Source: Clostridia bacterium
GTDB taxonomy: Bacteria; Bacillota; Clostridia; Oscillospirales; Acutalibacteraceae
Direction of reading: 5' to 3'
DNA: 64,000 nucleotides
Assembly (NCBI GenBank): GCA_017613735.1
Contig: JAGADF010000010.1
Coordinates: 1 to 64,000, forward strand
Part shown: one piece after another, positions 47,153-52,846 of the stretch
How positions within the stretch are numbered: position 1 is the stretch's first letter
Layout of the letters: each line of letters begins with the position of its first letter
Notes under the pieces: model-generated
What the model was told of the DNA's origin: nothing
Seen by the model: the letters and a program-made list of their open reading frames with translations, nothing else
Databases searched by the model: none
Position numbers and translations under genes: made by a program

Positions 47153-48397
47153 TTATCTGATTTGCCCGTTGCCGCGGACAACATATTTCATACTTGTAAG
47201 CTCGTTAAGTCCCAGCGGACCGCGAGCATGTAATTTCTGAGTCGAAATGCCGATTTCGGCGCCGAGACCGAAAACTCCGCCGTCTGTAAAGCGCGTGCTC
47301 GCGTTATGATAAACCGCGGCGGCGTCAACCCTGTCAAGAAACTTTTTCGCCTGAGCCTCGTCCTTGGTGACGATAGCTTCGCTGTGCTTTGTTCCGTATT
47401 TATAAATCCAGTCGATTGCTTCGTCGGTATCGTTTACAATTTTAACCGACATATCGAAGCTGAGATATTCCTTTCCCCAGTCGTCTTCGGTTGCTCGAAG
47501 AATATCGGGACAGATTTCAACTGCTTTTTCGTCGCCGTGAAGAGTAACGCCCTTTTCGTCAAGCCTTGCTTTTATTGCAGGCAGAGCCTTTTCGGCTATA
47601 TCCTTATGAATCAAAAGACTTTCAGCCGCGTTGCATACTGACGGACGCGAGGTTTTTGCGTTGAAAACAATTTCAACCGCCATTTCGAGGTTTGCGCTTT
47701 TGTCAACGTAAATATGACAGTTGCCCGTGCCGGTTTCGATTACGGGAACGGTCGCGTTTTTAACGCACGCCTGAATAAGTCCCGCGCCGCCTCTGGGAAT
47801 AAGGACGTCAACGTATTCGTTCATTGTCATAAGCTCGGTTGCGCTCTGCCTTGAAGTATCTTCGACAAAGTTAATGCAGTCCGCGGGGAAACCGGCCTTT
47901 TCAAGCGCGGTTCTCATAATATCTGCAATAGCGGCGTTTGAATGAATTGCTTCCTTGCCGCCGCGAAGAATTACGCAGTTTCCCGCCTTAAGGCAAAGCG
48001 AAGCCGCATCCGACGTTACATTCGGTCTTGCCTCAAAAATAACCGCGATAACGCCGATGGGAACGCTCACCTTAGTTATTTCAAGCCCGTTGGGACGGGT
48101 AACTTCGTCAAGAATTCTGCCTACGGGGTCGGGCAATTCGGCAACCTCTCTTACGCCGTCAGCCATACCCTTTATGCGTTCTTTTGTTAAAAGAAGTCTG
48201 TCAAGCATGGTCGGGTTAATACCGCTGTTTTCGGCGTTCTTCATATCAACAGAGTTTTGTTCTATTATCTTTTCACAATTTTCTTCAAGAGCGCAAGCTA
48301 TTGATAAAAGAGCCTTATTCTTTTCTTTGGTAGAGGCGACAGCCAAAAAACGCGAAGCCTCTTTCGCTCTTTTGCCGAGTTCAAAAACGCCTGTCAT
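47153..48397 (-). CDS. proA: Gamma-glutamyl phosphate reductase
   Basis: Second enzyme of proline synthesis (414 aa): NADPH reduction of glutamyl 5-phosphate to the semialdehyde. The aldehyde-dehydrogenase-like catalytic Cys is in TSRPSVCNAAESLLIH, with VPIGVIAVIFEARPNVTSDA, LIPRGGAGLI and FGLGAEIGISTQKLHARGPLGL also intact. ATGA overlap with proB. Confidence 0.97.
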   Translation of the reverse strand: MTGVFELGKRAKEASRFLAVASTKEKNKALLSIACALEENCEKIIEQNSVDMKNAENSGINPTMLDRLLLTKERIKGMADGVREVAELPDPVGRILDEVTRPNGLEITKVSVPIGVIAVIFEARPNVTSDAASLCLKAGNCVILRGGKEAIHSNAAIADIMRTALEKAGFPADCINFVEDTSRQSATELMTMNEYVDVLIPRGGAGLIQACVKNATVPVIETGTGNCHIYVDKSANLEMAVEIVFNAKTSRPSVCNAAESLLIHKDIAEKALPAIKARLDEKGVTLHGDEKAVEICPDILRATEDDWGKEYLSFDMSVKIVNDTDEAIDWIYKYGTKHSEAIVTKDEAQAKKFLDRVDAAAVYHNASTRFTDGGVFGLGAEIGISTQKLHARGPLGLNELTSMKYVVRGNGQIR

Positions 48398-49173
48398 TTT
48401 TTCACCGCCTTAAATACAGTGCCGACCTTTTTGCCGTCAAGCAGGTCGTAAAGAAGAGCGGGATTATTGCCGTTCATTACGACCGTATCAATGCCCGCCT
48501 CGGTGGCAATTTTTGCCGCCTGAACCTTTGTCGCCATACCGCCCGTGCCTAAAAATGAGCCGTGAGGGGAGGCGATAGAGATGATTTTATCGTCAATTAC
48601 GTCAACCGTATCGATTAGCTTTGCGTCCTCAAATTCATTCGGATTTTTATCGAACAATCCGTCGGCGTCGGTAAGAATTACAAGTAAATCCGCATTTATA
48701 AGCTTTGCGACTATCGCCGAAAGGTTATCGTTGTCGCCGTAAACTATTTCGTCGACCGCGATACTGTCGTTTTCGTTTACAACGGGGATTGCGCCGAATT
48801 CAAACAGCTTATTGAACGTGTTTATAAGATTATTTCTTCTCTCTTCGCTGTCGACGTCGCTCTTTGTAATAAGAAGCTGACCTATCGTATGGTTGAATTC
48901 GGAGAAATATTTGTCGTAAATGAACATCAGCTCGCACTGACCTATACTTGAAGCCGCCTGTCTGCCCTCGGTGTCGGTCGGTCTTTCCTTAAGACCTAAT
49001 TTGCCTACGCCGACGCCTATCGCGCCAGATGAAACAAAGCAAAGCTCGACGCCCGAGTTAGCAATATCAGAAAGCACCTCGGCGAGTTCCTTAATTCTTT
49101 TGATATTTGTTTTGCCGTTTGAGTGAGTCAGAGAGGATGTGCCGACCTTTACGACAATTCTTTTTGCTGACAT
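48394..49173 (-). CDS. proB: Glutamate 5-kinase without PUA domain
   Basis: First enzyme of proline synthesis (259 aa). The amino-acid kinase domain is complete: VVKVGTSSLTH, FVSSGAIGVGVGKL, NENDSIAVDEIVYGDNDNLSA and the late GTGGMATKVQAAKIA. The E. coli enzyme has 367 residues with a C-terminal PUA domain; here it is absent, as in some other bacteria. GGAAGTGG precedes the ATG. A TATAAT lies about 40 nt upstream without a good -35. It leads the unit proB-proA and three envelope genes. Confidence 0.96.
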   Translation of the reverse strand: MSAKRIVVKVGTSSLTHSNGKTNIKRIKELAEVLSDIANSGVELCFVSSGAIGVGVGKLGLKERPTDTEGRQAASSIGQCELMFIYDKYFSEFNHTIGQLLITKSDVDSEERRNNLINTFNKLFEFGAIPVVNENDSIAVDEIVYGDNDNLSAIVAKLINADLLVILTDADGLFDKNPNEFEDAKLIDTVDVIDDKIISIASPHGSFLGTGGMATKVQAAKIATEAGIDTVVMNGNNPALLYDLLDGKKVGTVFKAVKK

Positions 49174-49298: not shown

Positions 49299-50093
49299 TC
49301 AGAGGACCTTTGAAAGGAAGTCCTTTAACCTGTCTGATTTGGGATTTGCGAAAAATTCGTCGGGTGTGTTTTCCTCAACGATTTTTCCCTCGTCCATAAA
49401 GATAACGCGTGAACCGACCTCGCGCGCGAAGCCCATTTCGTGAGTTACGACAACCATTGTCATACCGTCTTTTGCAAGTTCTTTCATTAATTCAAGTACT
49501 TCACCGACCATTTCCGGGTCAAGTGCCGAAGTCGGTTCGTCAAAGAGCATTACTTCGGGATTCATTGCGAGTGAACGCACAATGGCAACACGTTGCTTTT
49601 GACCGCCTGAAAGAGAAGCGGGATAGGCATCTGCTTTATCTTGTAAATCTATTCGCTCCAATAGCTCCATCGCACGTTTCTTTTCTTTTTCAATGATTTG
49701 TTTTTTTGTAAGAATGTCTTCGTTTATATCCTTGCCGAGTAATTTTTGTTTTTTCAGCTTTTTCATTTTTTGACACTGAATGTGAACGGGGGCAAGCATA
49801 ATGTTTTCAAGTACGGTTTTGTTGTTGAAAAGATTAAAATGCTGGAAAACCATTCCCATCTTTTGTCGGTGAACATTAATGTCAACATTCATATCGGCAA
49901 TGTCCACACCGTCAAAAATTATTTTCCCGTCAGTTGGATCTTCCATGCAGTTTAGACATCTTAAAAAAGTTGATTTACCGCTACCTGAGGGGCCTATAAT
50001 AACTACTTTTTCGCCCTCGTTGATGGTGGTTGAAATATCCTTGAGAACCTCAACGGAATTGAATGATTTTTTAAGATTCACTACTTCTATCAC
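49299..50093 (-). CDS. Polar amino-acid ABC transporter ATP-binding protein (GlnQ type)
   Basis: ATPase of a PAAT importer (264 aa). Walker A is GPSGSGKST (34-42), the Q-loop MVFQHFNLF, the signature [10 protein letters not shown] (161-170) and Walker [14 protein letters not shown] (181-193). GlnQ homologues are about 240 residues; the extra length is a Lys-rich insert at about 104-132, between [11 protein letters not shown] and [10 protein letters not shown]-type sequence. The start is GTG with AGGAGG 10 nt upstream, inside the permease gene; the overlap is 23 nt. Confidence 0.94.
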
Positions 50094-50790
50094 TCTTTTT
50101 CAACCTCCTTTCAGTCAACTTAATGAGGGCTGTAATCATAAGCACCATAACAATGTAAATGAGCGCCATAATAAGATACGGAACCATAAATTCGTAGTTA
50201 TTTGTACCTATGTACTTGAAAGCAACATAAAGATCCTTTGCTCCGACAAAGCTCACAATAGAGGTATCTTTAATGAGCGCAATAAACTCGTTTCCGAGAG
50301 AGGGGAGAATATTCTTTATTGCTTGAGGGATAACAATTTTAAGCATTGTTGTTGAATAGGAAAGTCCGACCGAACGGCCGCCTTCCATCTGTCCGGGGTC
50401 AACCGAATTGATTCCGCCACGCATTATTTCCGAAACATACGCTCCGCTGTTCATACCGAAAATAATGATACATGAGGTTAATGCGTTAATTGTCTGAAGG
50501 CCGAGAAGCGGTCTTAAAACAAAATAACCTACAAGAAGTTGAACAACAATCGGGGTGCCCCTGAAGAATGCAACGTAAGTATGACTTATTTTATTAAGTA
50601 TTTTCGGCAAGGTTTTATATTGAGGCATAACTTCTGCAATGGCAAGAAGAGTTCCGAGAACTATACCTATCGCAAGGCCTATAACGGCTATAAGAACCGT
50701 GTTCTGAAGCCCTGATAAAACCTCTTTATATCCGCCGTTATCAAAGAAAGCCCTTGAAAAGGCTTCCCATTTAACCTGAAAATTACCCAT
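50071..50790 (-). CDS. Polar amino-acid ABC transporter permease
   Basis: HisM/GlnP-family permease (239 aa, about five helices). The conserved cytoplasmic EAA loop is at [26 protein letters not shown], read in two parts, and the N-terminal [20 protein letters not shown] and [12 protein letters not shown] are family features. GAGGAA precedes the ATG. It lies 64 nt after the binding-protein gene, with a strong hairpin between. Confidence 0.94.
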
Positions 50791-50805: not shown

Positions 50806-50843
50806 AACCAATAAACCCCTCAAACCCGAGGGGTTTATTGGTT
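50806..50843 (-). promoter_or_regulatory. Intercistronic hairpin between binding-protein and permease genes
   Basis: A perfect 16-bp stem (arms AACCAATAAACCCCTC and complement) with a 6-nt loop. No U tract follows on the minus strand. This is typical of 3'-end stabilising hairpins that let the binding protein be made in excess of permease and ATPase. Partial termination is possible. Confidence 0.65.
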
Positions 50844-50854
50844 AATTATTTAGT

Positions 50855-51754
50855 TTAGTTCATTGCATTGACTGCTTTTGCAATACAATTTGCAGGTGCT
50901 TCGTCAATGATTACATAACTTACATCTCCGTTAAGCATTGCGGAAACTGCAAGAGAACCTGTGTTGAAGCCAACGTCAGTTGCACTGAGACCTGCGAAAC
51001 CGAAACCTTCGTCTCCCTTGACATATGCCTGACCTGTTGTGCCTGTCTGAACACCGATTTTAACTGAAGAATCAAATGTTGCAAGGATGGCGTCAACATC
51101 TTCCTTTGTTTTGCACTCGTCAAATTTAGTGTCGTTACCGAGAACGATAAGTTTCTGAGCAGCGTCATAATATGTATCAGTGAAATTAACAAGCTTTGCG
51201 CGGTCCGGTTTTACCGTAATGCCGGCCATACCAATGTCTGCGCCGCCGCTGTTAAGTGTTGAGAAAATTGCATCAAAGTCGATTGATTTGATAACAAGCT
51301 CTTTGTTAAGATAATCGGCAAGAAGCTGTGCCATTTCCATATCAATACCTGTGTAATACTCGCCCTGAGTGTATTCAAAGGGTTCGAATCCGGGCTCAGT
51401 AATGACAATAAGCTGGTCTTTCGAGGAGTCTTCCTCTGCAGATGAAATCATTGCCGGCTCGCCATCGCCGAAATAATGGTTGATTATTTCGTCAAACTTA
51501 CCGTTTGATTTAATCTCGGCAAGGAATTTGTTTGCTGATTCAAGCAACTCGCTGTCGTTGGGGTTAACTGCAAAAGCATATTCTTCACTTGAAAGAGCGA
51601 TGTCAATAACTTTTACTGCTACCGATGCATTGTTTTCCGATGGTTCCGTCGAGGGTTCTGTTTCGCCGCCTTTTTTTGTGCACGCTGCAAGAACGCCTAC
51701 CGATACAACGAGAACTACTGCCAAAATAATAGCTATAACCTTTTTGTTTTTCAT
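50855..51754 (-). CDS. Circularly permuted amino-acid ABC substrate-binding lipoprotein
   Basis: A 299-residue lipoprotein with lipobox LAAC (Cys25). After a short linker, residues 47-98 read YAFAVNPNDSELLESANKFL and AEIKSNGKFDEIINHYFG, which is the C-terminal end of an SBP_bac_3 protein. The normal N-terminus comes next: LIVITEPGFEPFEYTQGEY (115-133), FDAIFSTLNSGGADIGMAGIT, then VGVQTGTTG-like sequence. The chain stops at YVIIDEAPANCIAKAVNAMN (280-299), just where family members continue into the C-terminal block now at the front. Joining end to start restores the usual order. Nothing is missing, so it should fold. GGAGGAAAC precedes the ATG. Confidence 0.85.
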   Translation of the reverse strand: MKNKKVIAIILAVVLVVSVGVLAACTKKGGETEPSTEPSENNASVAVKVIDIALSSEEYAFAVNPNDSELLESANKFLAEIKSNGKFDEIINHYFGDGEPAMISSAEEDSSKDQLIVITEPGFEPFEYTQGEYYTGIDMEMAQLLADYLNKELVIKSIDFDAIFSTLNSGGADIGMAGITVKPDRAKLVNFTDTYYDAAQKLIVLGNDTKFDECKTKEDVDAILATFDSSVKIGVQTGTTGQAYVKGDEGFGFAGLSATDVGFNTGSLAVSAMLNGDVSYVIIDEAPANCIAKAVNAMN

Positions 51755-51794
51755 TTCTGTTTCCTCCTGAAATTTGTTTTTGGTTTTAACTTGC

Positions 51795-51931: not shown

Positions 51932-52846
51932 TTATTTTGCGATATCCACATACCACTGAGAGCCGATTTTTATGAGCGTAAGCTCTGCCGGGGAAGCGGA
52001 AAACTCTTTGTTTTGCTTGTCTATAGCGGCTTTATCGCCTTCGCCCGAAATGGTATTTGTAACCTTGACAACGGCATAAGCGGTTATATCGTCCGTATTA
52101 ATACCGAAGGACTCGTATGCTTTCTTCTGAGAATCCGAAAGAGAGTCAATGTAAGATTTGACCTTTGCCGAATCCTTTTCGATATTTATTTCGGTTGCCT
52201 CGGTATCAATATAGTATCCTGCAATATAAGGATCGTCCTCGTCATTTTCCGTATTCTTTGTGCCGAGGTATTTTCTTGCATACTGGTCGCCGTTACCGTA
52301 GAGGCTTTCGTTCTGGAACTTTATTATATTAAGGTATGTCGAAAGGTTGCCCTCGATGCAGGTGAACATATCCTCGTCCGAAATAAAATCGTGTCCGTAA
52401 ATTTCCTTATGGGCTTTCTGATACTCGGCAAAGTACGTTGAGAAAAATTCGTCATAGTTCTCGAAGCCTACCGTATCGTTGAGCAAAACAAATTCGGGAT
52501 ACATTTTTTCGAGTATCTCCGTCAGCTTTTCGCCCTCCTCTTCCGCAGTAAGCGCGGGAGCGGAGCCGTCGTTCTCTTTGACATACTGATTAATATAATG
52601 CTCGCGAAGATAGTCGCCCATTTTCTTGCTGACGCTCATAGTTGAATACTTCAGCGCGTCATAGCCGTCGCCCTCAACAGTATTCATAACATACTGTCTT
52701 GCAACCTTTTCGGGCGAGAACATTATGAAATGAGATATATAATAATATGTAATAAGTCCTGCCGCAACAACTATAAAGGCAATAACTGAAACTACGGCAT
52801 AGGTTATGTTGAACTTTTTGCTTTCCTGCTTAATCTCTTTAGCCAT
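51932..52846 (-). CDS. Single-pass membrane protein of unknown function
   Basis: A 304-residue protein with one helix (about 15-38) and an acidic, helix-rich outer domain. No family is recognised. The AAGGAGG ribosome site is excellent, and the gene begins 12 nt after the GPH-type transporter, so the two are cotranscribed. It may assist that transporter, but this is only suggested by position. Confidence 0.65.
   Translation of the reverse strand: MAKEIKQESKKFNITYAVVSVIAFIVVAAGLITYYYISHFIMFSPEKVARQYVMNTVEGDGYDALKYSTMSVSKKMGDYLREHYINQYVKENDGSAPALTAEEEGEKLTEILEKMYPEFVLLNDTVGFENYDEFFSTYFAEYQKAHKEIYGHDFISDEDMFTCIEGNLSTYLNIIKFQNESLYGNGDQYARKYLGTKNTENDEDDPYIAGYYIDTEATEINIEKDSAKVKSYIDSLSDSQKKAYESFGINTDDITAYAVVKVTNTISGEGDKAAIDKQNKEFSASPAELTLIKIGSQWYVDIAK

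Follow-up and report, generated by a model that had tools for sequence, protein, structure and literature searches.

A circularly permuted SBP_bac_3 binding protein at a Clostridia amino-acid importer locus, and the probable recurrence of such permutations in its family

How does an amino-acid-binding protein come to carry, directly behind its signal peptide, the block that closes other members of its family, and can it still work? This question is raised by a gene at 50855-51754 in the window, by which we mean the whole 64,000-nucleotide stretch analyzed here, which comes from a 16-contig draft genome of a Clostridia bacterium (91% complete). The gene, like all features of the locus described below, lies on the minus strand. 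It is one intact ORF of 299 amino acids with a Shine-Dalgarno-like AGGAGG (51763-51768) 5' of its ATG. The protein starts with a predicted signal peptide and lipobox (residues 1-25, 51680-51754; LAAC), whose Cys25 was invariant in an alignment of four sequences. Pfam SBP_bac_3 (PF00497) matched it with 101.9 bits, against a curated cut-off of 26.4. The canonical chain order of this family (large-lobe N-terminal part, small lobe, large-lobe C-terminal part) was not found; the C-terminal block came first. We consider it highly probable, judging from the sequence comparisons below, that the gene encodes a functional binding protein serving an amino-acid ABC importer, with a circularly permuted mature domain and its anchor on the small lobe.

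An earlier note on this DNA had proposed that the C-terminal block of the protein (residues 47-98) stands ahead of the block that normally opens the family (about 120-131) through circular permutation, and had named a single continuous profile match across the rejoined ends as support. Both were borne out, with refined limits of residues 44-98 for the first block and about 115 onward for the second. Against the PDB entry AncQR 4zv1, chain residues 12-172 aligned with query residues 115-289 and chain residues 177-233 with query residues 41-97; the two stretches are complementary, and their order is swapped in the window protein. Using an HMM built from 14 canonical relatives (259 positions), we found that residues 44-95 matched model positions 206-257 and residues 106-295 matched positions 29-206. 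Residues 44-98 alone scored 38.0 bits (model 209-257), while the top score of 2000 shuffles was 6.6. With this HMM, the native order gave two pieces (34.6 and 149.4 bits), as did a control rotated at the wrong place (123.3 and 32.1 bits), whereas the rotated protein gave a single domain covering positions 30-257 of 259 at 193.9 bits. Rotation also produced one stretch against TIGR01096 (20-250 of 250) and GlnH (22-244 of 248), for which the best native stretches were 15-148 and 17-131, respectively. Whole-protein scores stayed nearly constant from native to rotated order (TIGR01096, 91.0 to 95.5 bits; GlnH, 92.2 to 90.9 bits), indicating that the benefit of rotation is continuity.

Because the rotated sequence spans almost the full length of standard profiles without a break, the window protein contains a complete two-lobe SBP_bac_3 domain, in agreement with the view that both lobes are present. 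Completeness after rotation and an intact frame likewise uphold the proposal of a rotation as opposed to a truncation or a fusion of fragments. Two alternatives that had been raised, a different domain at residues 47-98 and a second C-terminal block, both failed: the match at these residues is the family's own C-block, and none of 174 classified ORFs carried a C-block at both ends. The codon for residue 299 is followed by a stop, after which lie a hairpin and the permease gene. The current Pfam model matches the window gene in two pieces, out of order. As chain order is not part of the profile cut-off, the window protein is a member of SBP_bac_3 by descent, namely a permuted one.

In GlnBP, the large domain comprises residues 5-84 and 186-224, the small domain residues 90-180, and the hinge residues 85-89 and 181-185, according to PMC7400645; PMC13229503 gives the same domain limits and prints the hinge as 85-89, 181 and 189. 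By alignment to these limits, Tyr195-Tyr196 of the window protein correspond to GlnBP 85-86, within hinge strand 1 (51158-51172), which spans residues 195-199 and is the counterpart of GlnBP 85-89. Tyr59, which is Tyr in 77 of 77 rows sharing the window's order, presumably corresponds to GlnBP 185, within hinge strand 2 (residues 55-59, presumably GlnBP 181-185; 51578-51592). On the basis of this homology, the moved block (residues 44-98, 51461-51625; HMM 206-257) would comprise the small-lobe edge strand, hinge 2 and the C-terminal part of the large lobe. It would be followed by a new linker between the old C- and N-termini (residues 99-114, 51413-51460; 10 residues by HMM limits) and by the N-terminal part of the large lobe (residues 115-194, 51173-51412), with ligand residues G178, T180 and R185. 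Beyond hinge strand 1, the small lobe would extend to the new C-terminus (residues 200-299, 50858-51157), with ligand residues T239, T240 and D284.

Three cut positions were found, two of them common (A, that of the window protein, and B) and one rarer (C). The type A cut falls before the last small-lobe strand (model 204-213), and the type B cut after the strand following hinge 1, the chains ending at about model 127-143. The type C cut falls within the small lobe (model ~160) and was seen in L177, L180 and L181, from three genomes of family f173; the gene of a fourth f173 genome examined (L182, G990) was canonical. Taken together with the GlnBP domain limits, the alignment places all three cuts in the small domain, with both hinge strands retained. 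This small-lobe bias may partly come from the survey query, as large-lobe cuts could be under-detected. The new termini had been thought to lie at the hinge; by alignment they would lie near it, about 10 residues off on the small-lobe side, and not in the hinge itself. A single-crossover reading, with each lobe contiguous after permutation, was ruled out by the residue mapping, in which both hinge strands are kept.

Ahead of the first block, 77 of the 78 type A proteins and 45 of the 48 type B proteins showed a lipobox pattern. L040 and L086 were without the pattern but had a similar Cys site, and two type B permease fusions (L095 and L148) had neither. Since the lipobox stands before the first permuted block, the anchor would now be joined to the small lobe, and each kind of permutation found appears to move the lipid anchor from the large to the small lobe. 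None of the 46 canonical ORFs passed this pattern test, since in them the HMM match already starts within the signal peptide; on their anchors the test is uninformative. In all five fused proteins scanned (L059, type A; L095, L096, L147 and L148, type B), the permuted domain runs into the permease. A further ORF (L183, 1129-3393, plus strand; 754 amino acids) reads as two tandem type B domains followed by a permease-like tail, the tail being read from the sequence.

At the window locus, the binding-protein gene adjoins genes for a permease of the polar amino-acid family (50071-50790; profile matches to BPD_transp_1 and TIGR01726) and a GlnQ-like ATPase (49299-50093; profile matches). Between the binding-protein and permease genes lies a hairpin with a 17-bp stem (50806-50843; -28.5 kcal/mol, z -4.6), which has no T run and perhaps stabilizes the binding-protein message. 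An Rfam search over 48-53 kb of the window gave no matches at the gathering score. The ATPase seemingly carries a lysine-rich insert of ~30 residues and gave two-stretch matches in many models; we take the insert to lie around residues 88-118 from a comparison by eye with GlnQ. On the same strand, 3' of the importer, two genes at 47153-49173 are, judging from their sequences, apparently proB and proA. They were considered as a conserved importer partner and rejected: at E 1e-10, none was found in any of 15 other A1 loci, whose sequence reached 0 to about 5 kb past the ATPase, and they were therefore not used for substrate inference. On the 5' side of the binding-protein gene, 51932-52846 encodes a 304-amino-acid protein with one N-terminal hydrophobic stretch by eye, for which there were no Pfam matches above cut-off and no NCBIfam matches.

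Several observations bear on function. At E 0.001, this 91% complete draft contained no second PF00497 gene and no second TIGR01726 permease. Binding-protein, permease and ATPase genes stood together in all 15 A1 loci examined, and, on the same strand, a window-like permease lay downstream of the binding-protein ORF in 76 of 79 cases for type A, 48 of 49 for type B and 40 of 46 for the canonical order, counts that include one gene pair fetched twice (L058/L072). The equivalents of GlnBP G68, T70, R75 and D157 in the window protein are G, T, R and D; we take D157 to be an amino-acid contact. In an alignment with 77 rows of type A, 47 of type B and 42 canonical ones, the Arg75 equivalent was R throughout (77/77, 47/47 and 42/42), and the Asp157 equivalent was D in 77/77, 46/47 and 42/42 rows, the remaining type B row having N. 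The Gly68 equivalent was A in 6 of the 47 type B rows and S in 4 of the 42 canonical rows. G68, T70 and R75 have alpha-amino-acid contact roles in GlnBP, according to PMC7400645. The permuted genes show signs of purifying selection: dN/dS was ~0.03-0.18 in 13 of 14 permuted pairs, the 14th being without a usable dS, although dS exceeded 1 in 10 of the 13 usable pairs, making those ratios rough. With its ligand and hinge residues kept, the window protein is very probably functional, and its ligand would be a polar amino acid.

Orthologues with the same order, which the earlier note had suggested looking for in related Clostridia, were common. The survey counted genes that were fetched and HMM-classified, with the best candidates of each genome scored, so that the following numbers are lower bounds; the genome draws overlap. 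Among 40 near genomes, including the window's own, type A was present in at least 14, of which 12 were among the 25 of the window's genus, and type B in at least G004 and G031. At least 62 of 394 genomes of the order had a permuted gene (type A in at least 32, type B in at least 31); in 391 genomes of the class, type A was present in at least 36 and type B in at least 22. Across 299 genomes of the phylum, a permuted gene occurred in at least 8, 5 of these outside the class. A named-genome scan found type A in three further rumen genomes (L031-L033), among 8 loci. The single-contig genomes G599, G627 and G746 each had a type A gene together with genes with a canonical PF00497 match, and in single-contig G266 the search at E 0.001 gave two PF00497 genes, of which one is type A, the other type B and neither canonical. 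G448, G453 and G647 gave no permuted matches. Of the plasmid records, searched for the type A order, 85 had a match to the query, and none of them, among the 30 listed, covered 80% of it in one place. Canonical, type A and type B genes all occurred within one genus. In genome G288, type A and type B genes lie side by side on one strand (L072, 1516-2349 and 2429-3292, minus strand).

The permuted order could in principle be an artefact of assembly, of annotation or of a frameshift, or come from fused gene fragments, and the draft state of the window's genome would favor such a reading. We regard it as extremely improbable, because the same order occurs in single-contig genomes and in 65 A1 proteins, and because the frame is intact, dN/dS is low in permuted pairs and the domain is complete once rotated. 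In genus g220, moreover, a type A gene (G606) and a canonical gene (G496) occupy the same syntenic locus, with flanks matching over 1929 bp (76%) and 3765 bp (68%) and with neighboring permease and ATPase genes 73% and 88% identical. Compared with G496, the signal peptide of G606 is unmoved, and a 150-bp C-block stands directly behind it, not at the gene end. In the window's genus, the type B gene of G004 and the canonical gene of G008 are followed by matching genes for a permease (78%), an ATPase (90%) and one more protein (88%), and the halves of the two binding proteins are 78% and 76% identical in swapped order; upstream, the sole match was a 267-bp stretch (73%) at a different distance. 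The same-locus pairs, G606/G496 above all, rule out assembly error and show that a resident gene was altered. Also to be weighed is one ancient permutation with vertical inheritance, the canonical relatives being separate paralogues. This would fit the large clade of the window protein (65 type A proteins, with 12 type B alongside, in the FastTree tree), but we consider it very unlikely, as permuted genes branch from among canonical genes of their own genus, once at the same locus, and AU tests under the model used rejected a single clade both for A (dlnL 278, p 4.5e-7) and for B (dlnL 255, p 3e-45).

The trees point to repeated change. FastTree, with 177 rotated proteins, required 12 state changes, and an IQ-TREE mixture-model tree of 111 proteins required 5 for A, all of them forced by starred branches, 5 for B, 4 of which are forced, and 10 across all states; in these parsimony counts, gain and reversion are inseparable, and the placement of the root on a single long Bacillus branch is uncertain. 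The 66 rows excluded from the smaller tree (41 A, 7 B, 9 canonical and 9 tandem) were chosen for being nearly identical to others, for belonging to the crowded A1 clade, or for a long branch or a fusion. None of 200 bootstrap trees, in a bootstrap that had not fully settled, contained A or B as one group. Taking the canonical order as ancestral, we infer at least three origins for A (the window clade, genus g220 and the f14/f44/f55 group), three or four for B and one for C. Linker sequences differ among the g220, f14/f44/f55 and B groups, as expected given separate origins. None of the permuted clades was found to contain a tandem intermediate. Tandem ORFs formed a separate tree group (L097-L101); L097 (554-3535, plus strand) and L098-L101 each carry three or two canonical SBP_bac_3 domains within one ORF, possibly the kind of intermediate through which a permutation could pass.

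If the permuted window protein is a working binding protein, a linker of 10 to 16 residues would join its former N- and C-termini, which both belong to the large lobe, and its new termini would open in the small lobe, immediately ahead of the strand into hinge 2. The chain would then pass from the lipid anchor through the small-lobe edge strand, hinge 2, the large lobe and hinge 1 to the remaining small lobe. Because the hinge strands and amino-acid contacts are kept, ligand capture would proceed through lobe closure as in GlnBP. What would change is the tether, the membrane anchor pulling the small lobe, not the large one. The signal peptide is unmoved and the mature domain alone rotated, most simply through a tandem duplication in frame whose outer portions were then lost. 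Both the duplication route and the effect of the new tether are what we infer.

The permutation may be functionally neutral: small-lobe cuts near the hinges would be tolerated, duplication would supply the copies, drift would fix them, and the anchor site would be inert. We give this about an even chance. It is in keeping with the similar permeases beside canonical and permuted proteins (the 73% and 78% pairs described above), with the sharing of one genus by canonical, A and B, and with the A and B cuts, which lie close to the borders of conserved segments in the model. Three cut positions used on separate occasions, with the termini always in the same lobe, count against neutrality, as does the linker of the 65 A1 proteins, in which the motif SAxxDxSKDQL (residues 105-115) is about as conserved as the N-part of the domain (mean consensus 0.75 vs 0.76; 0.53 for residues 99-104), yet neutrality is still compatible with both. 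Alternatively, re-anchoring may have been selected, a small-lobe tether altering how fast the lobes close, how far the protein reaches or how it is presented to the permease, and being repeatedly favored, a reading that we hold only tentatively. Several origins at two main positions, each bringing the N-terminus to the small lobe, speak for it, and in the five scanned fusions it is the new C-terminus that is joined to the permease. In PMC4990184, the authors likewise weighed membrane anchoring as a reason for permutation of the type I protein Tp0684. On the other hand, canonical proteins persist within the same genus, and the absence of a lipobox from L095 and L148 means that the lipid anchor is not universal. 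That the Clostridia possess a recurrent switch near the hinges, which shifts the anchor or permease fusion point to the small lobe and is selected since the tether tunes closure or docking, strikes us as somewhat doubtful.

Most known circular permutations in nature are isolated events, old and distant. In SBP_bac_3, we see several separate permutations, at two main positions and a rarer third, with a same-locus pair in one genus. Tp0684 (TpMglB-2) of Treponema pallidum, termed 'Type Ic', is a naturally permuted type I glucose-binding lipoprotein (PMC4990184) and resembles the window protein in being a natural permutation of a lipid-anchored ABC binding protein with Gram-positive relatives. 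In Tp0684, however, the permutation added a fourth hinge crossing, whereas the window protein would keep both crossings; the moved part of Tp0684 is poorly conserved, and its authors suggested a source in another gene, whereas that of the window protein shows plain homology. No type I glucose/galactose-binding entry was present among the Pfam and NCBIfam matches of the window protein or the best 60 of its 76 PDB matches. A structural survey (PMC2395249) links glycine-betaine binders, molybdate binders and CysB by permutation, also between bilobed binding-protein folds. Those proteins are distant (<24% identity) and were found by structure, whereas here one canonical and one permuted relative (G008 and G004) are 76-78% identical per half, and a second such pair (G496 and G606) sits at one syntenic locus.

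Among canonical proteins, GlnBP/GlnH and AncQR 4zv1 are homologous to the window protein across the whole mature domain once it is rotated, and ligand-contact residues, hinge residues and operon partners are alike. Their termini lie in the large lobe, whereas those of the rotated window protein would, by homology, lie in the small lobe. GlnPQ (6h30) has two head-to-tail SBP_bac_3 domains fused to a permease and presents the permuted order across their junction, whereas the window protein is single-domain; tandem domains of this type are a possible evolutionary source of the permuted order. By best stretch, tandem 6h30 was the only junction-spanning PDB chain among the best 60 of 76 and the best 60 of 88 matches. 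The impression that permutation is undescribed in this family held within the open-access literature matches listed, where titles and abstract openings named no permuted SBP_bac_3 protein, but it does not extend to other binding-protein families, in which permutation is known; within those matches, only the family and the recurrence look new.

The permuted SBP_bac_3 set makes the genomic origin of permutations and the effect of the tether site on transport testable. Profile-based annotation can misread permuted importers as broken, and the out-of-order PF00497.25 pattern could serve an unbiased genome-wide screen for permuted genes. This model has 132 positions and apparently covers the large lobe alone; permuted genes show its positions 97-131 upstream of positions 1-97.
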